From the IMG/VR virus record IMGVR_UViG_3300044612_000288, positions 1-28,034 of that record: 28,034 nucleotides of DNA. One strand, 5' to 3'. Positions within the stretch are counted from its first letter, which is position 1. Each line of letters opens with the position of its first letter. Shown piece by piece: positions 14,022 through 28,034 of this stretch. The translations under genes were made by a program, and so were the position numbers. The DNA comes from a virus. The notes under the pieces are model-generated. The model saw only the letters and a list, made by a program, of their open reading frames with translations, did not search any database and was not told the origin of the DNA.

Positions 14022-14205
14022 GCCTGAGTGGCTTCTGCCATTTGAAAACATGGATGTAGGGGATAGTTTCTTTATCCCCACCATGCGCCCACCTGAGTTA
14101 ATTTATTCGATTGACTGCGGCGCTAAGCGTGTTGGCATCCGTGTAAAGTCCTACGTTACAACTAAAGAAGGGTACATTGGCGTACGCTGCTGGCGTACAG
14201 GTTAG
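13999..14205 (+). CDS. Small conserved phage protein
   Basis: 68 residues starting inside the primase-helicase gene (13999). The core FENMDVGDSFFIPTMRPPEL and the later GIRVKSYVTTKEGYIGVRCW match a pattern I have seen repeatedly in small phage proteins (MxVGDSFFIPT). No function is known to me; a compact beta-rich fold is inferred. It is the last plus-strand gene, and its TAG (14203-14205) overlaps the TAA of the converging giant gene. Confidence 0.65.
   Translation: MEPTKIIEPEWLLPFENMDVGDSFFIPTMRPPELIYSIDCGAKRVGIRVKSYVTTKEGYIGVRCWRTG
14182..14198. repeat. Inverted repeat at the convergent junction
   Basis: GTACGC (14182-14187) and GCGTAC (14193-14198) form a 6-bp stem with loop TGCTG. TGGCGTAC is also a direct repeat at 14178-14185 and 14191-14198. 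It lies inside the last plus gene just before the shared stop region. There is no T-run, so it is a weak terminator candidate at most. Confidence 0.45.
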
Positions 14206-17200
14206 GGCTTTAATCCGTAAGCTTTAAAGTCTTCTACCAAGCTATGCTTAACGATGTTCTGTTCTATCATGTTTATTTTTAGTAGAGCAGTTTTATCTTT
14301 AGGCGTAAATACTGGGTCTCTTCTAATCTCGTTAGCTTCCTGACGCAATCTATTAAGCTCGCCACCAGCGCCCTTCCTGTATATCTCTATAAGGTCTTCA
14401 GCAAACGGGTTCTTATTTAACACACGAATTAAAGCTTCAGGATCAGTTTCGGCTGATTTTAATTTTTTCTCCATTACCTCAATCTGTTTCTCCATAGACT
14501 TAAACTCACGGCTGTCTACGTTAGGTACGGCTCCAATAAACGAACCAACAAGTGGTAAATCAGTCTTAGCTTTAAATTCTTTTGAGCCCCCAATTAAATA
14601 AGAAGCATTAACAATAGCATCAACCACCCGTGCTGGGCCGTCAATGTAACTATTGGCAAGGAAATAAAGAGTATTAGGCGATATATCAATAGCCCCGTCC
14701 GACTCCCTGTGTAGCTTGTTTGCCAAGATCTTATATGTCTCAGGGATGTTATCTCCGCCTAAATAAGCGTCACCCATGCGGCGATTAGAGTCGTTGTAAA
14801 TGTCTTGTCCAAGACCATTCTTATTCATAACAAACTCGACTGCAGGTCGTAACATGCTTGGCGTTAATGAGTCCACCATCCATGCAGCTGGGTCGTCGCC
14901 AATAGGCATGCGTGATACAGGAATTGGCACGAAAGAGTCCAACATAATCTGAGTAGCTAAATTACCCAGCGCCCCACCAATTGACTGCTGACCCGTCATG
15001 ACCCCTGCAAGCTGTGCGCCGGCAGATGCAAAAGCACCAAGTCCAAACCCCCAAGGTACTTGTAGTGGGTTCTCAAAGCCTGGGAAATAGAAACGAGCAA
15101 AACGAGTCCATTGGCTCATGTCGTCGTTCATAGTCTTATTTCTGCCTAGGTCGTCTTCGTCCGCCATCATTATTGCCATGGTGTAAGCAAACGCACCGGC
15201 GCCCATCAAAGCAGTAGTCATGTAACGTGCAGCTTTTTGTCTACCAGCGTAGTTAGCTTTAAACTCGGCTAATGCAGCTGGATCATTCTTAATTCTATCT
15301 GGTAGTGCAGCAACAACCTTATCTAAACTTTGGAACGCTGGGGCAACCGCTTCAATAGCACGGACCGCACCTGTAGCAGAAGGACGGAAGAACATAAACG
15401 CAGCGCCCATCTCTCTACCGTATTTACCAACCTGTTCAAAGTTAGCTAGGTTTTTAGCGTAGGCAGCGGCACGTACCCGAGCAGCTTGCTCAGTTGCTCC
15501 ATGATCTATAAAGTTTTTCTTAGCAATGGCATACGCTGCGGAGCGGCTAGCCAATTCAAACATATCAGTCCAAATATCAACCAACCTATTAAACTGATCC
15601 CAGGTTTTAATAACTCCACCACGCCCTACTTCTTTATAAAGTTTCTCTGCGTTTGACTTTAGTGAAATACCTTGGAGGTACTGCACCATACCACCCTCTT
15701 CAATAAACTCAACCATTTCTTTATAAATTGGGTTTTTCTTAGCCAGCGCTCGAATTTTGGTGTAATCCTTGGTCTCGTATAACCTAGCAATCTCCATACC
15801 TTTCCACAAGCTACCACCTGTCACTACTTTGTTAGCAATCTGGGCGATAAACCGTGCAGCATGTCCCGGTCCCATTTCGGCACCGATTGCCCAAGCGTTA
15901 GTCAATGCGTCACGGACAAAGTTTAGTGGGGCAAAGTTATAGTTATAACGGGTATGCATCATACCCAGCCCGCTTGTAAGCTTGTTAGCAACGTTAACTA
16001 ATGAGTTAGTGTCTTTGTAGGTACGACGAATAGCCTCACGCAAAGACCTGTCTCGAATAGCAATAACGTCAATGCTTCCATCCTCGTTATAGTGAAATAT
16101 AGTGTTTTCTTTGGGTAGCGCTTTTAAAACATTCTCATCTTGACGCTCTTCAAAGGTAATACGTTGTACCACTTCCCCTTCTAAAAGCCCTTGTCCATTG
16201 GGGTTTAGATCAACTTTCTTGCCGTCAATTGTTTTAGTACTTTTACCTACAGAGTTCTTAATAGACTGGGTAAGTTCTTTTCTACCAGCGCGCATTGCAG
16301 CACGCACAACATCTGACATGGTTTGAAGTATTGGGTTGTCAGAAACAGATAAACGCCCATCAAATCCGTAGGCAACTTCTTGTAACTCTTTACCCATTTT
16401 GGTGCTGTCAAAATCCATCATCTCGTCAGCTTCGGAGTGCTTATCTACACCCTTTAAAGGTACATAATGATTAAATCCATAGAAAGCTATACGATTACTA
16501 ACCGGCTGAGAGTAATAGTTTGCTGATTTATTAAGGTCTCTAGTAACTCTATCTAATTTTTGAACCTGTGCAAACACATCGTCTACTAAAGCTTTAGTCT
16601 TAGGATCAAGCGCTTCATACTTTGCTTTGCGGGCAGCAACGGCTTTTGGACTTAGACCGGTTGCGTTGTACTCTTCGTTAGTAGGATCAACAGCTTTTTT
16701 ACCAGACGGGCTAAAACCGGCTGGGGTTACATACTTAGTATTAGGTACTTGATTGCCGTTAGCATCAGTTGTAAAAATAATAGTATTTAACTCAGACCTA
16801 AGATCCTTTGCCTGTTTTTCTGTAATAGTTTTAGTATTTAGAATCTTCATAATCTGCGCACGGCGATCAGCAGCGCTAATCATAGTGCCACCTTGCGGTA
16901 TGTCTTTTATAGTAGACAGCGGTACCGTCATAACGTATTTAGCTAAGCGGCGCTCGGGATCGTGCAAAGCTTCTGCAACACGGTGCAGCATATCCATAAC
17001 GTCTTTCATTTCCATGCCGGTAGTCTTAGATAAGTCATACACAGCGGTATTTAGCTTCTCGTATGTGCCTTCTACAAACTCACTAAATATATTCTTAGCA
17101 CGGCTGGTGCTTAAGGTAAGCTGATCATAGATATTGTTGATCTTGTCTTTACCTTCGTACATGGTTTTGCCAGCCAAATCATTTAGATCCTGCCAACGCT

Positions 17201-20200
17201 TAATTGGATAGCGTTCGTTTTGCAGTGCAGTGGCAATCCGTCTCCAGCCTTCTTTAGTAAAGAACAGATTCTTAATGTATTTAAAATCTCTTGGCTGATG
17301 CTCTTCAGACAGCGCATAGGCAGACTCTTTGCCAGCGGTCGGCATTATCTCTTCGTCATCCCGTAGCTCAAGCGGTTTTTTAGGCGCTGCAGTCGCGGCA
17401 TAAGATACTTCTTTACCACGTATGCCTTTGCTGGGTAGCGAAATAAGCTGGGCTAAGTCTTCAGCTATTTCTTTAAACACTGCACCTTCGCTTGGATTAC
17501 TAATCCCTAAAGCAGCCGCTATGTTCTTAACAATTGTGGTGAAGAAATTTTCTTTTGGCGTATATGGTGTAGGAGATGCCATTAATGCCAAGTCTTGCTG
17601 AAACTTTGAGTTACTCCAAAACTCAGCCGCAAACTCTTTAAGGGTTTCTATATTGTATTTTTTGCCAAATCTAGCTAAGACAACTCTATGGTTTTGTTTC
17701 AAGCGGTTTAACGCTGCTCTTACGTCTCTTACAACTGGGGCGGGCTTGTTAAACTCTGCACGTAACTCTCTTAGTTTTGCAACAGCAGTTGCAACCTCTT
17801 CTGCATTCTTTTTGTCTGCTTTTAGCTTTCTTATCTTTGCTTCTAAAGCTTTAATCTCTTTATCTAGTTCTGCGCGACGTGCTGAATCTTTAGCAGCTTG
17901 GGCTTCTAAAGACTTAATAAATTTATCTTCGTTGTCAAACACATGGTCAAGGGTCGCGTGAGATACTTCGTGCATGACTGTTTCAGGTAATGGGCGCGCT
18001 CCGCTATAGCCGTCTTTATTGGTGCCCTTTATAGTGATAGTGTTTGTCTTAGGATCAAACTTACCATCTTCGTTTGCTTCTAGCTTGCCAAACTTAATCT
18101 TGGTCTGTATTGGGAAACCAGTTAGTATATTTAAGAACTGAGCCGCAACAGTACCTGTCATGCGGTCATTAAGCGTACGGTCCTTAATTGTGTCTAGTAT
18201 GCTGTCTTTACTTAGCGTCAAGTCATCATTAACAATAGCTGACTCTATCTTAGCTACAAGCTTAGACTTTTTCTCTTTAGCTTCAGCTTGAACTTCTTTG
18301 GTTACTTTTTTCCGCTCTTCGGCACGGGCGGCAATGCGCTCAGCTTTGGCTTTTTCTTTTGCCTCTGCTTCTTCAACGCTAAGTTCAGCCTCTGCAAGCT
18401 GCTCTTTAACATCTTTAATAACTTGCTTTTCTTGTTTCTGTCTGTACGCTTCCGTACGGCGGTCGCCGGCGGTAGTAATCTTATTGTCTCTAACAGCTGA
18501 AATAATCTCTAGATCAAGTATGGCTTCGGTCATCATGCCAAACTTAAGTGCATCATCTACATTTGCTGCGGCTTGCTCTGCTATAAAGACTTGTCGATCT
18601 TTACCTGCATTAATTCTTGCTTGACCACCTTCCTTTGCCATTTGAGCTTCGGTTTTGGTGCCAATGTTCTTTTTAAATAAATCCAGCACCTCTTGTTCAG
18701 ACATAAACTCAAGCGGTTTTTCCTGGGAGTATTTAACTTTAGGAGCATCTTTAATTACAGACAAAGCTTCTTTAATGACTTTCTCGCTCTTGCCATCACG
18801 AGTCATTTGTGCCCGTTTAGCTTCACGATTAGCTTTACGTTCTTTGTTAAGTGCATCTATTTCTGCATTTTTAGCAGTTTGACGCTCAGCCATTATTTGT
18901 TTAATTTCTGGCAGCACCATCTTTTCGTAGGCAATACTGTCATACAAGTCATATGCTTCGTCAAAAGCAGCAGCTTCAATCCCTGCTTCTATGACATCTT
19001 TTGCAACAACGTTTTTATTTTTTTTAGCAAGCACTTGGCTTTGCTTTGCAATTTGCTCAGGAGACTTATCAGAGTAGTAGCTATTCTTGTTTAAGAAGTT
19101 GTAAGACGATGGGTCCTCTGTTTCAGTGTCTTTTGGACCACGCCATTTAATTGGTTTAGCTACTTTCTCTTTCTTAAAAACGTCGCCCTGCACCCCTTCT
19201 TTAGTCTTCTTACCAATATCACCTAGTTTTTCAGGGAACGACAATAGCTTACGGATGTCTTCAAAAGCACTTACCTTAGTAACTATTTCATCACGCTTTG
19301 TTTGCGCTTCGGGTGTAGTTACTTCTGGAACAGCTACTTCTGGGGCAGCTACTTCGGGTGTAACTTGTTCTACAGAAAACGCACCTTCGCCAAATTCTTC
19401 ATTAGCTGCATCGTACTCGTCTTGTGTCAAAATTTGACCAAGTTTTACAGCCCCAGGCATTTCAGGTTTTACTAGCCCTGCGTCAACAACTTCATAAACA
19501 GCTTCTCCAGCCAATTCAGCGGCAGCTTCTTCAGTTATTGCAGCTTGTTCTGCAGCGGCGGCAGCGGCGGCTTCTTGATCAGCTAATGCTTGCTCGTCAA
19601 TTACTTCTTCAATTCCAGCAAGCTCATTAATTACATCTTGCGGCTGATTAGTTTCTGTGCCCCATCTTTCTACAAGCTCAGGAAAGTCAGTAGTTTGTCC
19701 GTCTTCTGGTAAATTAATGCTATTCTGAGCCGCCCAGTTAAAAAATGATTTGTAGGGGTCTAATGCAGGCTGCTGTGCTCCCGTTCCGTCTTCAACTGCG
19801 CTAATAGTACTTTCAGCGTCAGCCACTCCAGGTCGTCCATCTCCGGTAGGGACTGCGGGGGCTCCTCCTGTTTCGGGTCCGCCAAGAACTCCAGCGCCAA
19901 CTCCACCTGCCGTAGTGTCAATCTCTTTAGTAACATCTTGCCCTCCTTCGGCTAACTTAGCCTTTAGCATTGCTATCGCATCTACATTCTTAGTGCCTAC
20001 TGGAATAGTTATTCCAGCTTCTTTAGCTAGTTTTCTATAGTCGGACTGTTTAACTTGGAGTCCAGCATCAACCGCCGCTAGGTAAGATGGTAAATCTGTA
20101 TATGTAGGAGTGGGGGTGGGCGCAGCAGGCGCAGTGGTAGGAGCCCCGCCTTTTAGTTGTTCTAAAAGTTTTTTATCTCTTGCCTGTGCAATTGTTGCTG

Positions 20201-21479
20201 CTGGCATATTAGGATGTGTTTTAGAGTCAAGCTTAGGTTGCCGCTCATTAATTTTTGCTTCTAAGTCTGCAATCTGCTTTGCCTTCTCGTCGCTAGTAGG
20301 CATGTCAAATGTTTCGTCTGCCTTAACAGGAGGAACAGGAGGTGGTGCCATATCCTTTTGCAACAAATCGCCAGCACTATTAATAACAGGATTTAGTTGA
20401 AGCTCTAGCTCACTATCAATAACAAGCGGTGCAGCTTTGTTTTGTAAGGCAGCTTCTTGATTCTTAATTTCTTGGCTTTTATCCTCATCAGCGATAGTTT
20501 TGTTAGCATCGGGTTTAACAGCTGGCGCACCAGGTCCACGGATACCAACAGCCGAACCTACTAATGCACCAACAGCGGCATCCCGTGCAGCAGCACCTGC
20601 TACGCCCTCAAATGTGCCGACATTAAATCCTTCTTTTTGTAAGCCACGATTAATAGCAAGTTGTTCTTGACCAGCTTGTACGCCTTCTAGTGGAGCTTCA
20701 GCTGCAGCCGCTTTAGCCATACGCCCTACAAGATTAGAACTTAGCTTTGCAGACGCACCAGGGGTAAGCAGATTCTCAACACCAAATCTAGCAGCCACAC
20801 CACCTAATGCGGTACCGCCCATGATGTCTAGGAAGTTAGCGCCAAGATATTCTTGGGCTTGCTTAGCTTGTCTATCAGCCTCTTGTTCACTAAGACCAGA
20901 CTTTACTAACTCGTTCTTAACGTTATCGTATAGAGAACCTTTTACTGATCCAGCACCTTGCGCAGCACCAACCACAGTATTAATTGCACGAACTGTAGGA
21001 GGAAGTAGCTTGCCAACTGCACCGACTATACCTGTACCAATATAAGGAACAATAGAGCCAAGACCTTGCGCCAAGGACTGTACGGGGGCTTCGGCTACAC
21101 CAGCTAAGAATGTACTAATCTCATCTTTTACAGTGCCAGTCTTAGCGGCTTGGCGTTGTAAGTCTTCACGTCTAGCCATCTCGGCTCTACGCTCTGGGGT
21201 GTACTCTTCGCCTAGTTGATTTTGAATATCACCTAGCTTTTTAGAGACAACGTTCTCAGCACCAAATACATCGGTAAGCGCTTTAGCTGAACCAATAACA
21301 CCCTGTTTTAGTGCGGTAGCAGTATCAGCAAGGGAAAATCCAGCGCTAGGTGGAGGTACTTCTTCTTTTTGTTTAATGCTGGGTAATATATCCCGCTCAA
21401 TAGCGTTAACGATGTCTGCTTGAGACATCCCATCAGGAAAATTAACTTTCCCAACGCCAGGTACATTAACAGATGGCAT
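14202..21479 (-). CDS. Giant internal/ejected virion protein with metalloprotease-like motif
   Basis: 2425 residues, by far the largest gene. The N-terminus (MPSVNVPGVGKVNFPDGMSQ, ADIVNAIE) is typical of large phage virion proteins. Gly/Ala stretches (~150-310) and proline/alanine linkers (TTAPAAPTPTPTY; PEVAAPEVAVPEVTTPEAQ) separate modules. Coiled coils lie at ~1015-1085 and ~1190-1240. Between them is HEVSH at 1170-1174 (MHEVSHATLDHVF), a zinc-peptidase HExxH motif. The C-terminal ~500 residues (NFEQVGKYGREMGAAFMFFR, FYFPGFENPLQVPWGFG) resemble large polyvalent-protein domains (LPD38-like, from memory), with a hydrophobic segment near 2090. Ejection with the DNA is inferred. It starts two bases after the previous stop with no clear Shine-Dalgarno site. 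Confidence 0.8.
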   Translation of the reverse strand: MPSVNVPGVGKVNFPDGMSQADIVNAIERDILPSIKQKEEVPPPSAGFSLADTATALKQGVIGSAKALTDVFGAENVVSKKLGDIQNQLGEEYTPERRAEMARREDLQRQAAKTGTVKDEISTFLAGVAEAPVQSLAQGLGSIVPYIGTGIVGAVGKLLPPTVRAINTVVGAAQGAGSVKGSLYDNVKNELVKSGLSEQEADRQAKQAQEYLGANFLDIMGGTALGGVAARFGVENLLTPGASAKLSSNLVGRMAKAAAAEAPLEGVQAGQEQLAINRGLQKEGFNVGTFEGVAGAAARDAAVGALVGSAVGIRGPGAPAVKPDANKTIADEDKSQEIKNQEAALQNKAAPLVIDSELELQLNPVINSAGDLLQKDMAPPPVPPVKADETFDMPTSDEKAKQIADLEAKINERQPKLDSKTHPNMPAATIAQARDKKLLEQLKGGAPTTAPAAPTPTPTYTDLPSYLAAVDAGLQVKQSDYRKLAKEAGITIPVGTKNVDAIAMLKAKLAEGGQDVTKEIDTTAGGVGAGVLGGPETGGAPAVPTGDGRPGVADAESTISAVEDGTGAQQPALDPYKSFFNWAAQNSINLPEDGQTTDFPELVERWGTETNQPQDVINELAGIEEVIDEQALADQEAAAAAAAEQAAITEEAAAELAGEAVYEVVDAGLVKPEMPGAVKLGQILTQDEYDAANEEFGEGAFSVEQVTPEVAAPEVAVPEVTTPEAQTKRDEIVTKVSAFEDIRKLLSFPEKLGDIGKKTKEGVQGDVFKKEKVAKPIKWRGPKDTETEDPSSYNFLNKNSYYSDKSPEQIAKQSQVLAKKNKNVVAKDVIEAGIEAAAFDEAYDLYDSIAYEKMVLPEIKQIMAERQTAKNAEIDALNKERKANREAKRAQMTRDGKSEKVIKEALSVIKDAPKVKYSQEKPLEFMSEQEVLDLFKKNIGTKTEAQMAKEGGQARINAGKDRQVFIAEQAAANVDDALKFGMMTEAILDLEIISAVRDNKITTAGDRRTEAYRQKQEKQVIKDVKEQLAEAELSVEEAEAKEKAKAERIAARAEERKKVTKEVQAEAKEKKSKLVAKIESAIVNDDLTLSKDSILDTIKDRTLNDRMTGTVAAQFLNILTGFPIQTKIKFGKLEANEDGKFDPKTNTITIKGTNKDGYSGARPLPETVMHEVSHATLDHVFDNEDKFIKSLEAQAAKDSARRAELDKEIKALEAKIRKLKADKKNAEEVATAVAKLRELRAEFNKPAPVVRDVRAALNRLKQNHRVVLARFGKKYNIETLKEFAAEFWSNSKFQQDLALMASPTPYTPKENFFTTIVKNIAAALGISNPSEGAVFKEIAEDLAQLISLPSKGIRGKEVSYAATAAPKKPLELRDDEEIMPTAGKESAYALSEEHQPRDFKYIKNLFFTKEGWRRIATALQNERYPIKRWQDLNDLAGKTMYEGKDKINNIYDQLTLSTSRAKNIFSEFVEGTYEKLNTAVYDLSKTTGMEMKDVMDMLHRVAEALHDPERRLAKYVMTVPLSTIKDIPQGGTMISAADRRAQIMKILNTKTITEKQAKDLRSELNTIIFTTDANGNQVPNTKYVTPAGFSPSGKKAVDPTNEEYNATGLSPKAVAARKAKYEALDPKTKALVDDVFAQVQKLDRVTRDLNKSANYYSQPVSNRIAFYGFNHYVPLKGVDKHSEADEMMDFDSTKMGKELQEVAYGFDGRLSVSDNPILQTMSDVVRAAMRAGRKELTQSIKNSVGKSTKTIDGKKVDLNPNGQGLLEGEVVQRITFEERQDENVLKALPKENTIFHYNEDGSIDVIAIRDRSLREAIRRTYKDTNSLVNVANKLTSGLGMMHTRYNYNFAPLNFVRDALTNAWAIGAEMGPGHAARFIAQIANKVVTGGSLWKGMEIARLYETKDYTKIRALAKKNPIYKEMVEFIEEGGMVQYLQGISLKSNAEKLYKEVGRGGVIKTWDQFNRLVDIWTDMFELASRSAAYAIAKKNFIDHGATEQAARVRAAAYAKNLANFEQVGKYGREMGAAFMFFRPSATGAVRAIEAVAPAFQSLDKVVAALPDRIKNDPAALAEFKANYAGRQKAARYMTTALMGAGAFAYTMAIMMADEDDLGRNKTMNDDMSQWTRFARFYFPGFENPLQVPWGFGLGAFASAGAQLAGVMTGQQSIGGALGNLATQIMLDSFVPIPVSRMPIGDDPAAWMVDSLTPSMLRPAVEFVMNKNGLGQDIYNDSNRRMGDAYLGGDNIPETYKILANKLHRESDGAIDISPNTLYFLANSYIDGPARVVDAIVNASYLIGGSKEFKAKTDLPLVGSFIGAVPNVDSREFKSMEKQIEVMEKKLKSAETDPEALIRVLNKNPFAEDLIEIYRKGAGGELNRLRQEANEIRRDPVFTPKDKTALLKINMIEQNIVKHSLVEDFKAYGLKP

Positions 21480-21481
21480 AG

Positions 21482-24097
21482 TTATTGTGGTGCGTAAGTA
21501 AAGGAGCCGTCTTTATTTTGTACTAGTTTACCTCCAGGTGCAGCGGGTGTTGGTTTAGCGCCAGGTGCAGGAGTTGCCGTAGTAGTTGTAGAGCCTCCCT
21601 TCCTAGCTTGCTCACGTCTAGCTTCAAAGTCTGCTTCAAATTTTCGTAGATTTTCTTTTTCTGCTTCAATTCTGTTTTTCATTTCAGGGCTAGCATCTTT
21701 TGGTGGGGTCATATTAGCCCATTTGTACGCTCTCTGATATGCAGGATCTTTTTTAGCCCGATCAATGTCAGCTTCCACTCTGGCAAGTAGTTTGTTTTCA
21801 CCGCCTGCTCCACCCGTAGCGTCAGCCCGAACTTGAGCCGCTTGCAAATTACGTTGGCTAGTTAGATTAGACGCCGCAAAAGTAAGAACGTTACCAACTT
21901 TGCCTTTTAGATCAGAAGACAGCTTTTGTTTAAGTTCAGAAGCTTTGTCAAACTCGCCAGCTTTTTCTAAGCGCTCAACTTTGTCTAGTCCAGTTATGCT
22001 TGCATCAATATCTCTAAGAATTTTTTTCTGTTGTTTATCATCTGAAATAAAATCAGGTACTTTGTTTTTAAGAGCAGTTAAACCCGCAACAATTGAATTG
22101 CCTGGGGTAGAACCCCATGTTGCAAAAAACTCAGCCATACGCATCCAGTTTTGACGAGTAGCTTCTTCTTTAGCGTTAGCCTTTTCTGCCATCAATCTTG
22201 CACGCTCTTTTGGAGTAAACTCATCCGGTCCAATATATGCACGGCGCTCAGCTGCTATCTCAGCAATAGTTTTTTCAGGTTTGTTAGCTTCTGCCAAAGT
22301 TGCAGCAATATACTTATCAAGCTCAGGATTACCTGTTCTAGTTGCTGAAGTAATACCAGCAGGAGCTGGAGCAGGACCGGCAGCGCTAGGAACGGCGGCG
22401 GGGGGTTTAACACCAATATTAGGATCAGCTTTAACAATAGCTACTCCTTCGTCAGTCCTTCTTTGAATTGCAGCTTTGTCTTCTTTAGATAAACTAGGAT
22501 CGGCTTGAACTCTAGCATTTTGTTTATTTGCATCAGCAATTATTTGATCCTTGGTACGCATATCCGAAGTTTCATTAGCAATACCACGGAAATCACGATT
22601 TGCAATGCGCTTAAAAACGTCTTCAGTAATTCCTTGACCACCTGCATCTCTAGTTAATACAGGGGCAGGGGTACGATTAAGCTGAGAACCAACGTCTTTA
22701 ATAAGTTGATTTTGAAGATTGATTTTTTCTTGGTCGTAACGAAGATTTTCTGGTATTTCATTTTGTTTAAGTTTTGCAGCATCAATATACGCTTTGCGTA
22801 CCATCTCTGGGTCTTCTACTTCACCCCTATCTTTAAATGCAATAATCCCACCACTAGCTTTACCTACCTTATCACGTAGAACTTCCTCGGCTAAGCGTTT
22901 TGCTATTGGGCTAGAAGTTTCATTAATGTAGTCCCTAAGATCTTCAGGACTCATATCATAGAGTTTGCCTTTTACTGAACCGCCTACGTCGTACGATTTG
23001 ATACCAGTTGTTGGCTTAAACTCACTGGGAAGGCCACCCTCCTTACCACCTCTAAACACATTACCAAGCGAGCCAATAGCGCCAATAGTACCAATACCTT
23101 GTGTAAGCGCATTAGGTGCAGCGACATATGACTGTGTATTAGTAGACTGCATTGGTAGACCACGCAACATATTAGACATAACACCAAGTTGCATGAGCGG
23201 ATACTGTTGAGTGTTAGCCCAGTCCTGAATGGCTTGGTTAATTTTCTGTTGCTCAAGGGCTTGCTGTTGCGCACCCATCTGAGACTTTATACCAATAATA
23301 TCTTTTTGGGCGCCTAGTTGTTGTGCACCTAACTGCCCTAAAGTACCTGCAGCCTGCCCTGCCTGCCCCATACCTTGTAGACCAGCTTGTATTCCTTGTA
23401 AACCCAACTGAGCGCCAAACTGTTGTTGACGCTGAGCATCTTCAAATGCTTTTTGTGAACCTGTAGCGGCAATGCCCTGTAATTGGTTTGTTAAGCTACG
23501 TTGAGCTTCTGCTTCCATAAGCGCTGCACGGTTTCCGCCAAACGCGCCTTGACCTACAGCTTGAGCTTTACGTACTCCTTGACCAATGTTGTAATCCCGA
23601 GCAGCTTGAGCTTTTTGATAGTCCACCACGTTTTGCATATAGGGGGACATGTAACCTTGCATTGCCATTGGGTTTTGAGCTTGTTGTGCAAATTGTTGCC
23701 CTGCACCGGCAGCTTGCCCTGCTAAACCTAATGAACCTAAACCAGAAGCTCCTGCTAAAGCAGTAGCATCTCCAAATTGTCCTGGAGTTTGTAGTCGCCC
23801 CGTTGCCTGCATAGCTTGTTCTTGAAGCGGTTGAAACCCTGCTACATATTTACTGGGATCAGTGCTATATGGTTGGTATGGTTTAAAACCCGTAATCTCA
23901 CTACCATCCATATTAAACAACTGCTTCTGGGTAGCACCCAGCATGGTCTCAACATAAGGCCGAGCGTATTCAGGAATGTTAGTGTTGTATGAAGTACTAG
24001 TAGTTTGAGTTGGACCGCCACCGCCGCCACCGCCAAAATGAGGAGTCCGTCTTCCTTCGTGAGTCCAACCACTATGTTTAGATCTTAATATGCTCAT
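21482..24097 (-). CDS. Gln/Gly-rich virion (probably ejection/internal) protein
   Basis: 871 residues. A seven-glycine run (HFGGGGGGGP) lies near residue 25. The first ~300 residues are rich in Gln, Ala and Gly with helical, tape-like periodicity (LGLQGIQAGLQGMGQAGQAA), including YMSPYMQNVVDYQKAQA. SGGIIAF occurs at mid-protein. The second half is charged and helical (PELDKYIAATLAEANKPEKT, RARLMAEKANAKEEATR), and the end is a proline/threonine linker. In P22-like order it lies between the hub and the giant protein, so an ejection-protein role is inferred. GGTGGAAG in the end of the upstream gene can serve as ribosome site; ATGA overlap. Confidence 0.72.
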   Translation of the reverse strand: MSILRSKHSGWTHEGRRTPHFGGGGGGGPTQTTSTSYNTNIPEYARPYVETMLGATQKQLFNMDGSEITGFKPYQPYSTDPSKYVAGFQPLQEQAMQATGRLQTPGQFGDATALAGASGLGSLGLAGQAAGAGQQFAQQAQNPMAMQGYMSPYMQNVVDYQKAQAARDYNIGQGVRKAQAVGQGAFGGNRAALMEAEAQRSLTNQLQGIAATGSQKAFEDAQRQQQFGAQLGLQGIQAGLQGMGQAGQAAGTLGQLGAQQLGAQKDIIGIKSQMGAQQQALEQQKINQAIQDWANTQQYPLMQLGVMSNMLRGLPMQSTNTQSYVAAPNALTQGIGTIGAIGSLGNVFRGGKEGGLPSEFKPTTGIKSYDVGGSVKGKLYDMSPEDLRDYINETSSPIAKRLAEEVLRDKVGKASGGIIAFKDRGEVEDPEMVRKAYIDAAKLKQNEIPENLRYDQEKINLQNQLIKDVGSQLNRTPAPVLTRDAGGQGITEDVFKRIANRDFRGIANETSDMRTKDQIIADANKQNARVQADPSLSKEDKAAIQRRTDEGVAIVKADPNIGVKPPAAVPSAAGPAPAPAGITSATRTGNPELDKYIAATLAEANKPEKTIAEIAAERRAYIGPDEFTPKERARLMAEKANAKEEATRQNWMRMAEFFATWGSTPGNSIVAGLTALKNKVPDFISDDKQQKKILRDIDASITGLDKVERLEKAGEFDKASELKQKLSSDLKGKVGNVLTFAASNLTSQRNLQAAQVRADATGGAGGENKLLARVEADIDRAKKDPAYQRAYKWANMTPPKDASPEMKNRIEAEKENLRKFEADFEARREQARKGGSTTTTATPAPGAKPTPAAPGGKLVQNKDGSFTYAPQ

Positions 24098-24510
24098 AAT
24101 TTGACTTCCACCAAAATGGCTTTCTCTTCAAAGCCAAAACGTTTCCATAATCTTGCCACTGCTTCTTTGGCAGCCCCTTGAATTTTAGTAGCCCCATTAG
24201 CTTTAAATACTTCAGACATTTGTGTAAAAGTCTCTGGGTTTGTTACTAATTTTCCACCTATTGAGGTAACAAATGCAACTCTATCGTTAGGATAGTTAAT
24301 AAATGACACTGTAGCAGCGCCATGTATTTCTGCGTTTTCATCTGTTGCCACTAGCAGCATCATCTGCCCTGTCACTAAATAAACTTTAATCTGTTCGGTC
24401 GTATACTCTGACCCACCAAACTTCTCTTCTGCACTTTTAATAAACGGCTCAACCTTAGACCAAACTTGGTTTACTAGCTGAACCGGTACTGGCTGGACTT
24501 TAAATGTCAT
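24094..24510 (-). CDS. GNAT-fold protein in the virion operon
   Basis: 138 residues. YTTEQIKVYLVTGQMMLLVA, then EIHGAATVSFIN, FVTSIGGKLV, KANGATKIQGAAKEAVARLW and KRFGFEEKAILVEVKL follow the GNAT acetyltransferase order: central strand, acetyl-CoA-binding turn, GF/LW helix and final strand. The usual R/Q-x-x-G-x-G/A loop is only loosely kept (SIGGKLV), so catalysis is uncertain. Phage virion modules often carry such a small protein next to the internal proteins. Its size equals that of T7 internal protein gp13, but homology is not claimed. ATGA overlaps on both sides and no clear Shine-Dalgarno site. Confidence 0.68.
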   Translation of the reverse strand: MTFKVQPVPVQLVNQVWSKVEPFIKSAEEKFGGSEYTTEQIKVYLVTGQMMLLVATDENAEIHGAATVSFINYPNDRVAFVTSIGGKLVTNPETFTQMSEVFKANGATKIQGAAKEAVARLWKRFGFEEKAILVEVKL

Positions 24511-26677: not shown

Positions 26678-27015
26678 ACAGTTGTGACCGTTACGGTTCC
26701 TATTCTTCCTATTGTTTTTACACCTGTTAAGAAAATCAAAGGGTATCCAAGGGCATTTACCCAATCTAAGCCATTCCAATATATCGGATACCCAAGGCTC
26801 GTATCAAAGTAATACTGCCCAACCTGTAGATTTTCTGTGGGTCTATTTGCCGTAGTACCCGAAGCAGGTACCGTAACGCTTTGAGTAAAGTTGTCAATTT
26901 GGTTAAAGTACAGACGCAGGGCATTTAATACTTGATCTTGGTATAGCTGGCGGTACTCTACTGGCGCAATGGGTAAGTTAGGCGCTTTAGAAGGACGAAG
27001 TGGGACTTGTGCCAT
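26674..27015 (-). CDS. Small tail-associated protein
   Basis: 113 residues (MAQVPLRPSKAPNLPIAPVE...). YRQLYQDQVLNALRLYFNQI is an amphipathic helix. TTANRPTENLQVGQYYFDTS then LGYPIYWNGLDWVNALG is a short beta module found in phage tail and fibre-associated proteins (RP.....GQ.YFDT..G.P.YWNG..WV). The remainder is short and threonine-rich. Start at ATG 27013-27015 overlaps the upstream stop by one base (TAATG). It follows the hub gene in the place where P22 has small tail genes, so a tail fitting or fibre-attachment role is inferred. Confidence 0.7.
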   Translation of the reverse strand: MAQVPLRPSKAPNLPIAPVEYRQLYQDQVLNALRLYFNQIDNFTQSVTVPASGTTANRPTENLQVGQYYFDTSLGYPIYWNGLDWVNALGYPLIFLTGVKTIGRIGTVTVTTV

Positions 27016-28034
27016 TATCTACGTCCGTCATTCCTAATATCAATCCGTGGGCTACCTAGCTGCCATGCCACACCCAGAGAATCCGACTCAATCCTAAAGG
27101 CAAGCTGGCGCCCTCTTAGGCGGGTATAGACCTGTCCAGTAAACTCTTGGACGTTATAGACCGGGGCAGTAGAAAAGTTATCCCCACTAATTACTTCTGG
27201 GTTATCTGCCGTACCATAAGGCGCTCCAGAGTTTTGACGGGGTTTAACCCTCATCGTGACGTATGGGTTGTTGACGTTAGAGCCGTTAAAGTTAATATCA
27301 GGCAGGATACGCCAGACAAAGCCAAAGTTATGCCCATCTCCAATATCAAAGTCAGAAGACTGTATATAAGCATTAATTGGCACGGGGGCTGTACCTGATA
27401 CGTCATCTACCGCAGATTCGTGAAATAGCATCCTATTGTTGTAGTCAGCAGCCATAGGGTATTGACGTAAACCAGAGTCTAACCAAGCCGTACGAGCCAT
27501 TGTGCCGTATGCCCAAGTACGTTCTAAGTAATTGTAAATCACGTATTTATTTATAACGTTACTTCCTTGTGAGCAGTAGAACCACCATACTTCGTTGTAG
27601 CTTTCGTTACCACCACAGAATACTTGGAAGGCCTGCTCCCTGTTAACATCCTCAAAAATGTATTGCCAGAGCGAACAAGGTAGGGTCTCAACACGACCTG
27701 AGTACATGTAGAACTTATCAACACCCATCCAATACGTTACGTTATTAATCGTAATCATAGAGTTTGGAGACATAACAGATATGTTATCCATGAGGATTTG
27801 AAAGCCCCAGACATAGGGCGGTCCTAGGTACTGCATGGAGTAAATAGCCGCATCTGTCCATACCAAGATTTCTTGACGAGTATTACGGGCACCCATAATA
27901 AATGACCCGGCAGATAACCTAAATTCGCCTGATTGGTTTGTTACTGCAGGCACCCACTCGTAAGGATTTTCTTGGTCTGACCAGCGTACCAGCATAGGAT
28001 CAAAGGTTGTAGAAGCTGTATTTGGGTCATATGG
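27015..28034 (-). CDS. P22 gp10-like head stabilisation/tail hub protein, C-terminal part
   Basis: The frame is open through the right edge, so the gene is cut; 339 residues are visible. An internal Met at 27993-27995 is not the likely start, because PYDPNTASTTFDP continues in frame before it. Conserved stretches include MLVRWSDQENPYEWVPA, GSFIMGARNTRQEILVWTDA, AIYSMQYLGPPYVWGF, VTYWMGVDKFYMYSGR and LPCSLWQYIFEDVNREQ. The pattern matches what I know of the P22 gp10 DNA-stabilisation family (beta-propeller-like, about 470 aa), which closes the packaged head and carries tailspikes. The match is from memory. Confidence 0.7.
   Translation of the reverse strand, partial: PYDPNTASTTFDPMLVRWSDQENPYEWVPAVTNQSGEFRLSAGSFIMGARNTRQEILVWTDAAIYSMQYLGPPYVWGFQILMDNISVMSPNSMITINNVTYWMGVDKFYMYSGRVETLPCSLWQYIFEDVNREQAFQVFCGGNESYNEVWWFYCSQGSNVINKYVIYNYLERTWAYGTMARTAWLDSGLRQYPMAADYNNRMLFHESAVDDVSGTAPVPINAYIQSSDFDIGDGHNFGFVWRILPDINFNGSNVNNPYVTMRVKPRQNSGAPYGTADNPEVISGDNFSTAPVYNVQEFTGQVYTRLRGRQLAFRIESDSLGVAWQLGSPRIDIRNDGRR

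Follow-up and report, generated by a model that had tools for sequence, protein, structure and literature searches.

The stretch of viral DNA analysed here (the window, 28,034 nucleotides, positions 1 to 28,034 of IMG/VR record IMGVR_UViG_3300044612_000288) encodes a protein of 2425 aa, designated W, whose gene occupies 14202..21479 on the minus strand (ATG start, stop codon included). The open reading frame and its translation are backed by full-length relatives at L002 and L003; L-numbers denote related viral loci. The gene takes up 26% of the window. An earlier note on this DNA had put the share at over a quarter, without the strand. Read on the plus strand, the interval has stops throughout, which places the gene on the minus strand, where all features of W given below lie. 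The centre of W holds a predicted zincin-like metallopeptidase domain with an HExxH motif, followed by a long C-terminal module with an LPD38 domain, here called the carrier.

The motif, HEVSH, is found in the translation at residues 1170-1174 (17958..17972), where the earlier note had placed it. A carrier profile retrieved 58 viral loci, 51 of which reach the zincin slot; the others (L012, L014, L019, L020, L041, L042, and L058) are truncated by contig ends lying at most 117 residues ahead of the carrier match. All 52 slot-reaching proteins (51 loci and W, some being near copies of one another) have exactly one HExxH. Letter-shuffled family proteins have the motif in 204 of 10,400 trials (0.02 per protein), and its presence in the family is therefore beyond chance. 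The middle letters vary, with 22 motif versions among the 52. Downstream, the pattern E-F-[VIAL]-[ASGT], composed after inspection of the sequences, is observed in 52/52. It lies 56-69 residues on, but 112 residues on in W and L011, because both bear a coiled-coil insert. Among 46 non-identical aligned copies, the invariant positions are only H1170, E1171, H1174, E1282, and F1283. A third zinc ligand downstream of HEVSH, which the earlier note proposed to look for, has its candidate in E1282 (17634..17636, within KEFAAEF), kept in 46/46 rows. The conservation of the HExxH motif in homologues, also raised there, is borne out by these counts.

AlphaFold2 modelling of the domain of W (residues 1069-1351, 17427..18275; alignments A3 and A6) with 46 sequences gave a pLDDT of 87.4 and a pTM of 0.84. 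In the numbering of the model, strands are predicted at 59-63, 71-74, and 79-85, while HExxH lies in helix 96-113 and E1282 in helix 212-221. These two helices are modelled beside the small sheet, with helices before and after the strands. The supposed zinc-peptidase motif is an intact site in a confidently modelled zincin-like domain, not in an unstructured stretch. Based on conservation and the model, it is likely that zinc is bound by H1170, H1174, and E1282 and that E1171 is the general base. Catalysis is favoured because the general-base Glu is kept, a residue that zinc in a purely structural role could do without. The dN/dS of the zincin was 0.04-0.09 in six of eight pairs and 0.195 for L031/L037, and could not be computed for one pair owing to saturated dS. 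These values indicate strong purifying selection on the domain.

A coiled coil at residues 1192-1245 (17745..17906) sits between the HExxH helix and the E1282 helix. It is helical in the model and is present in W, L002, and L011, but not in L006 and L008. This coil is an insertion within the metallopeptidase domain, not a separate stretch. Thus, of the two coiled coils between which HEVSH had been placed earlier, the first stands, as a charged, coil-like stretch at about residues 1000-1090 (46 charged residues in 1001-1100), and the second belongs to the domain as an insert. Most NCBIfam and Pfam matches of the domain are weak ones to the coil; a Pfam WHEP-TRS match at 1205-1244 is below the cut-off and falls on the insert. 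A SprT-like model matches 10 of the 46 domain rows (best E 1.3e-5).

The zincins were typed by the motif around E1282, EFxAE defining type A. W and 17 other proteins belong to type A, and 34 to type B. In BLAST, the zincin domain of W matches 17/17 of the other type-A proteins and 0/34 of the type-B proteins. Alignment of the two profiles (A6 against A7, hhalign) scored 98.9% with E 1.2e-17 over 196 columns, indicating that types A and B are diverged homologues.

Nucleotide identity between W and L010 is mostly 79-92% for residues 1-550 and again for 1401-2300, except that L010 lacks a counterpart of W 401-450. Over residues 601-1350, where L010 has a type-B zincin, the identity is 30-51%. Between W and L011, identity is 93-99% in residues 751-1100 and 81-89% in the zincin itself, but most other blocks have 57-82% and a few have less. 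The region directly upstream of the zincin, residues 740-1070 (18270..19262), is referred to as the partner region. It goes with type-A zincins, matching 16 of the 17 others (the exception is L039) and 0/34 of type B. When the stretches of 320 residues preceding the zincin were all compared with one another (51 queries; hits counted by direction, near copies included), 1215 hits were between the same type (264 A-A and 951 B-B) and 7 were across types. It follows that the partner region and the zincin move together as one cassette. Its upstream exchange boundary falls within a variable Pro/Ala/Thr/Glu-rich linker, residues 370-735 (19275..20372).

The distribution of types was also mapped on a carrier tree of 47 rows, for which four duplicates and the short L067 were dropped from the 52. 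Zincin type requires a minimum of 7 changes, at least 4 of which are forced by well supported branches. The type is also partly inherited, since shuffled labels require 14.1 changes on average. As judged from these comparisons, two diverged zincin types have been exchanged repeatedly in one slot, each with its own upstream region. In the open-licence literature searched, such exchange with a matched partner is undescribed. The cassette exchange and the swapped N-terminal tags described below are absent from the earlier note.

Two side observations concern the same comparisons. Residues 740-1070 are nearly the same in W and L011 though they differ much more in the rest of the gene, pointing to a recent transfer of the partner region. 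Past residue 2300, the nucleotide identity between W and L010 is 57-72%, and the last 125 residues (2301-2425) form a third variable part.

The carrier, residues 1391-2425 (14205..17309), is mostly helical in its model (pLDDT 77.7) and is conserved throughout 41 sequences (alignment A5). LPD38 (PF18857) is matched at residues 2119-2301 only (14577..15125) with E 1.7e-19 and 71.1 bits, against a Pfam gathering cut-off of 27. The suggestion that the C-terminal part resembles large polyvalent-protein domains thus proved right. Compared with predicted viral structures, the carrier model matches 84 at E <= 0.001, and those listed include proteins named LT_GEWL, RelA/SpoT, type I restriction methylase, and LPD38. 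Among its matches listed for solved structures, there is no counterpart. In sequence searches against solved chains, none was found for the carrier profile or for full-length W. The carrier profile found no relative in representative bacterial and archaeal genomes (97 pattern matches, 0 confirmed). W matches 115 annotated phage records at less than 60% identity, and the 40 listed match the C-terminal part alone; the residues of the zincin alone retrieved no annotated phage record at E <= 10. The C-terminus of about 1000 aa is a widely shared LPD38 carrier. The LPD38 protein gp69 of Burkholderia phage JC1 is reported to have been detected in purified virions by mass spectrometry (PMC9144972).

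LPD38 proteins of FGH, BA3, and Vibrio phage 1.205.O show partial matches to methyltransferase models, each with one HExxH of its own. Ruegeria phage 45A6 has one HExxH and no LPD38 match in the examined part (3047 aa, cut). LPD38 proteins of marine phages at L078:11989-19893, L080:8989-16884, and L076:1816-11208 have partial methyltransferase matches and a single HExxH each, partly of other types (HELAH/HEMAH...GFAEF).

The N-terminal body, residues 60-330 (20490..21302), is Gly/Ala-rich with conserved glycines (alignment A4). Hydropathy peaks of W are at residues 141, 293, 978, and 2087, with a height of only 1.2-1.3. It is a guess that the body, with the peaks at 141 and 293, might be a membrane-active part used in ejection.

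The first 25-60 residues of the family, including the starts at L010-L067, are short tags. In W, the tag covers residues 1-35 (21375..21479) and is single (tandem p 0.054). Based on 43 non-identical complete N-termini (L025, whose start is unsure, was left out), the tags fall into 20 groups unrelated at the cut-off used, though some single-member groups look akin by eye. A tandem pair of tags was detected in 30 of the 43 (shuffle p <= 0.01), against 0/43 for residues 61-120 as a control. How alike two tags are is not correlated with how alike their carriers are (Spearman 0.04, p 0.25); for residues 61-330, such a correlation is seen (0.35; pairs not independent). Like bodies bear different tags (L024/L026 and L052/L059), and different bodies bear the same tag (L040/L052). 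These data indicate that the tags are swapped independently of the protein body. Swapped or tandem N-terminal tags are likewise undescribed in the literature searched.

Six tags were searched against annotated phage records. The tag of W and the DIEKAR tag had no match there. The other four matched 26 records, 22 with the KYPQY tag, most of these from Vibrio podophages; four of the matches of the other tags are weak (E 0.008 to 0.3). Thirteen of the 26 records were inspected, and in all of them the match starts within residues 1-8 of a coding sequence. For two of the thirteen, Pan3 and ctvy9321, the annotation of the tagged protein reads ejection or DNA injection protein. In five tagged proteins with lengths of 505-1218 aa, Pfam matches nothing, LPD38 included. 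Residues 12-28 of W align with residues 10-26 of P22 gp16 with 9/17 identities; this likeness is weak (pairwise E 0.02) and is not the top-scoring piece. The tag is not always in the last ejection gene, since another gene follows it in BA3 and FGH. Nor does it seem to mark several virion proteins per phage: apart from the tagged proteins and internal starts, motif patterns gave only two spurious-looking matches in the loci searched. The claim goes only as far as this: the tags appear to stand at the start of a late, usually large gene.

Loading of ejected proteins by N-terminal parts has been described elsewhere. In P1 DarB, an N-terminal signal of at most 30 residues is reported to load a foreign protein into the head (PMC9024508). 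As described for T4, ten residues load IPIII, and in P22 the ejection proteins need the scaffolding protein, gp7 and gp20 also needing N-terminal parts (PMC8402733). By analogy, the tags may be loading signals fitted to the head of each phage.

W is the last minus-strand gene of the window. The minus-strand products are, in order, a stabilisation-type protein, proteins of 113, 202, 555, 138, and 871 aa, and W. The stabilisation or virion structural protein (27015..28034, minus, cut by the window end) matches PHROG 3287 with E 2.3e-52 and shows 29.6% identity to the phage stabilization protein of ctvy9321 (E 2e-31). The 202-aa product is like short tail fibres. The 871-aa gene directly upstream of W (21482..24097, minus) is DNA-ejection-protein-like, matching PHROG 4287 'DNA ejection protein' with E 1.6e-11. 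The ejection context supposed in the earlier note agrees with this arrangement, in which W is encoded beside ejection and head genes. Judged from it, W probably rides inside the virus particle.

The gene order recalls that of P22, where genes 10, 26, 14, 7, 20, and 16 follow in succession. W and P22 gp16 share the place behind stabilisation and ejection genes and the tag likeness at the same distance from the start. P22 gp16 differs in having 609 aa and no LPD38 match. P22 gp16 is not known to have an HExxH. W stands in the place of gp16 and may act likewise, but it is not called a gp16 here.

The zincin of W is of a known kind. Like the metallopeptidase (MPTase) zincin of polyvalent proteins described by Iyer et al. 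2017 (PMC5512222), it has an HExxH helix, a Glu on a downstream helix, and a small sheet, and it is part of a giant phage protein with LPD38, a domain that this paper lists as phage-type only. The paper likewise describes variable inserts between the two helices. W has the invariant HExxH and the Glu in the following helix, and is predicted to have the three-stranded sheet, the N-terminal helix, and the two C-terminal helices. It differs from that description in the strict single slot between an ejection-type N-terminus and the LPD38 carrier, and in the exchange of types together with the partner. Sequence kinship with a known member runs via type B only. A type-B profile (29 of 30 type-B rows, the near copy L017 left out) matches the chain 9sfn_G, 'Internal virion protein', with E 1.4e-9 and the N4 virion RNA polymerase with E 1e-5 to 5e-5 over HExxH (C1 domain) and the following region. 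The N4 link was first read from a mixed A and B profile, and testing the profiles apart showed that type A alone does not make it. With 9sfn_G, the mixed profile gives E 3.7e-11, aligning HExxH-A-A-T and the downstream KE-L/F motif. PHROG 2206 'virion RNA polymerase' matches 33 of 46 family members. It is likely that the domain of W is the metallopeptidase of phage polyvalent proteins that is present in the N4 virion RNA polymerase, with peptidase activity predicted from the sequence and the model.

These relatives differ from W in other respects. No RNA polymerase domain was matched in W by Pfam. 9sfn_G, with 1337 aa, is about half as long as W and is not matched by the LPD38 carrier profile. 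The gp37 of phiKMV, a gp16 equivalent, has the same length (PMC8954989), and 9sfn_G is presumably this protein. P1 DarB and the DarB-like virion proteins of Bcep22-like phages and JC1 are also giant virion proteins, with LPD38 in JC1 gp69, but the payloads tabulated for them are helicases, methylases, and a transglycosylase (PMC9144972). The comparison with MuF-type proteins proposed in the earlier note finds no footing, as there is no MuF model among the Pfam matches of W at E <= 1.

Taken together, W is best read, with a probability of roughly 0.55, as a P22-like ejection protein of a short-tailed phage, carrying an exchangeable zinc endopeptidase cassette that acts after ejection. Its gene, which closes a P22-like ejection cluster and is the largest in it, would stand in place of P22 gene 16. 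The short tag would load W into the procapsid. The N-terminal body and the LPD38 C-terminus would form the carrier, ejected with the DNA and crossing the envelope. The partner region and the zinc endopeptidase would be a self-contained payload between the carrier parts, exchanged whole among phages with the carrier left in place. Once ejected, the peptidase would have as its target either its own partner or a host protein. Since the cassette is exchanged while the carrier stays, the peptidase most likely need not recognise the carrier. Two types serve one carrier, and each retains a partner of its own; what the peptidase cuts, or what regulates it, is thus more likely to be found in the partner or the host than in the carrier. 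An enzyme with a target outside the constant carrier is favoured by the exchange pattern together with the invariant catalytic residues.

Several results weigh against this interpretation. Beyond the tag, W has no sequence match to P22 gp16, and a search of a small set at E 0.05 gave no hit. The profile of its own type found no relative among solved chains, the best match (E 0.22) being a non-peptidase, and the domain of W itself has no PHROG 2206 match. A Foldseek search of the zincin model against PDB gave no match at E <= 0.001. In a second structure comparison, the best zincin, the lethal factor peptidase (Z 8.1, rmsd 4.3, 152 aligned), ties with coiled-coil rows. The missing Foldseek match is probably due to the long coil insert dominating the search; many coil rows in the second comparison have the same Z. 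Finally, the N4 virion RNA polymerase has a related domain, yet it is described as packaged unprocessed (PMC5512222). Cleavage is therefore not general.

The last point bears also on an unlikely though serious alternative, in which the zincin cuts the polyprotein itself before packaging, in the head, or after ejection, freeing its parts. Iyer et al. proposed self-processing as a general role of polyvalent-protein peptidases and describe P1 DdrB as processed, but they also describe ArdC and TraC1, besides the N4 polymerase, as moved unprocessed (PMC5512222). A cut between partner and zincin would account for the type-matched partner. A cut site in the carrier, however, would have to suit both types, given that the carriers of W and L010 are mostly more than 80% identical in nucleotide sequence. 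It is improbable, but less so than the explanations that follow, that the fold is kept for packaging or for the architecture of the ejection machine, with catalysis lost or incidental. The N4 region including this domain is reported to be required for encapsidation (PMC5512222), and the domain is found in ejection proteins of several phage kinds. With such a role, the low dN/dS of the zincin and the general-base Glu and third ligand, invariant in 46/46 while most of the domain diverges, would be hard to reconcile.

The earlier note had considered cleavage of the cell wall. As frequent wall-cutting domains in gp16-type ejection proteins show (PMC8954989), an enzyme of the envelope, opening peptidoglycan or a periplasmic protein during passage like the transglycosylase of T7 gp16, would not be out of place, and carriers with the same C-terminus bear LT_GEWL domains. 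In W, no wall-hydrolase domain is found among the Pfam matches at E <= 1, and no known wall-hydrolase model matches it. HExxH zincins mostly cut proteins. The cell-wall claim thus finds no support, and an envelope enzyme is very improbable. An oxygenase-like HExxH site, as in radical SAM or alphaKG-HExxH enzymes, is the faintest of the candidates: the N4 structure paper names both possibilities for the N4 domain (PMC12633501), but a Glu third ligand on the following helix is the zincin arrangement.

The exchange of zincins is suggestive of a plug-in system by which such phages deliver enzymes into bacteria. A bolder extension, which is tentative and somewhat doubtful, is that W is a delivery protein with three sockets: a swappable loading tag, acting as a capsid code matched to the scaffold or portal of the phage, a constant carrier, and a swappable payload. 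The payload would be partner and zincin here, and methyltransferase or other enzymes in cousins. Because tags are common to otherwise unrelated ejection proteins, P22 gp16 included, they might represent a general loading code for the ejected proteins of short-tailed phages, readable from sequence.

Published work already covers this class of domain, its HExxH, and its occurrence in ejected proteins (PMC5512222; PMC12633501), and mosaicism is a known theme of ejection proteins (PMC8954989). If the delivery reading is right, these phages provide a natural experiment on protein delivery, with payload and tag swapped in otherwise near-identical carriers. Swaps between W and L010 would show what fixes packaging, what fixes activity, and what the peptidase cuts. 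The exchange also bears on the purpose of the conserved HExxH domain in the N4 virion RNA polymerase and other ejection proteins. A readable loading code, if true, would be useful for protein-delivery particles.

On the plus strand, the window has replication-type genes, such as those for a family A DNA polymerase and an SNF2 helicase. The gene for the 138-aa protein (24094-24510, minus) lies between ejection-type genes. It has no Pfam match at E 0.01; at a similar place, ct2os315 has a gene annotated as GCN5 acetyltransferase.

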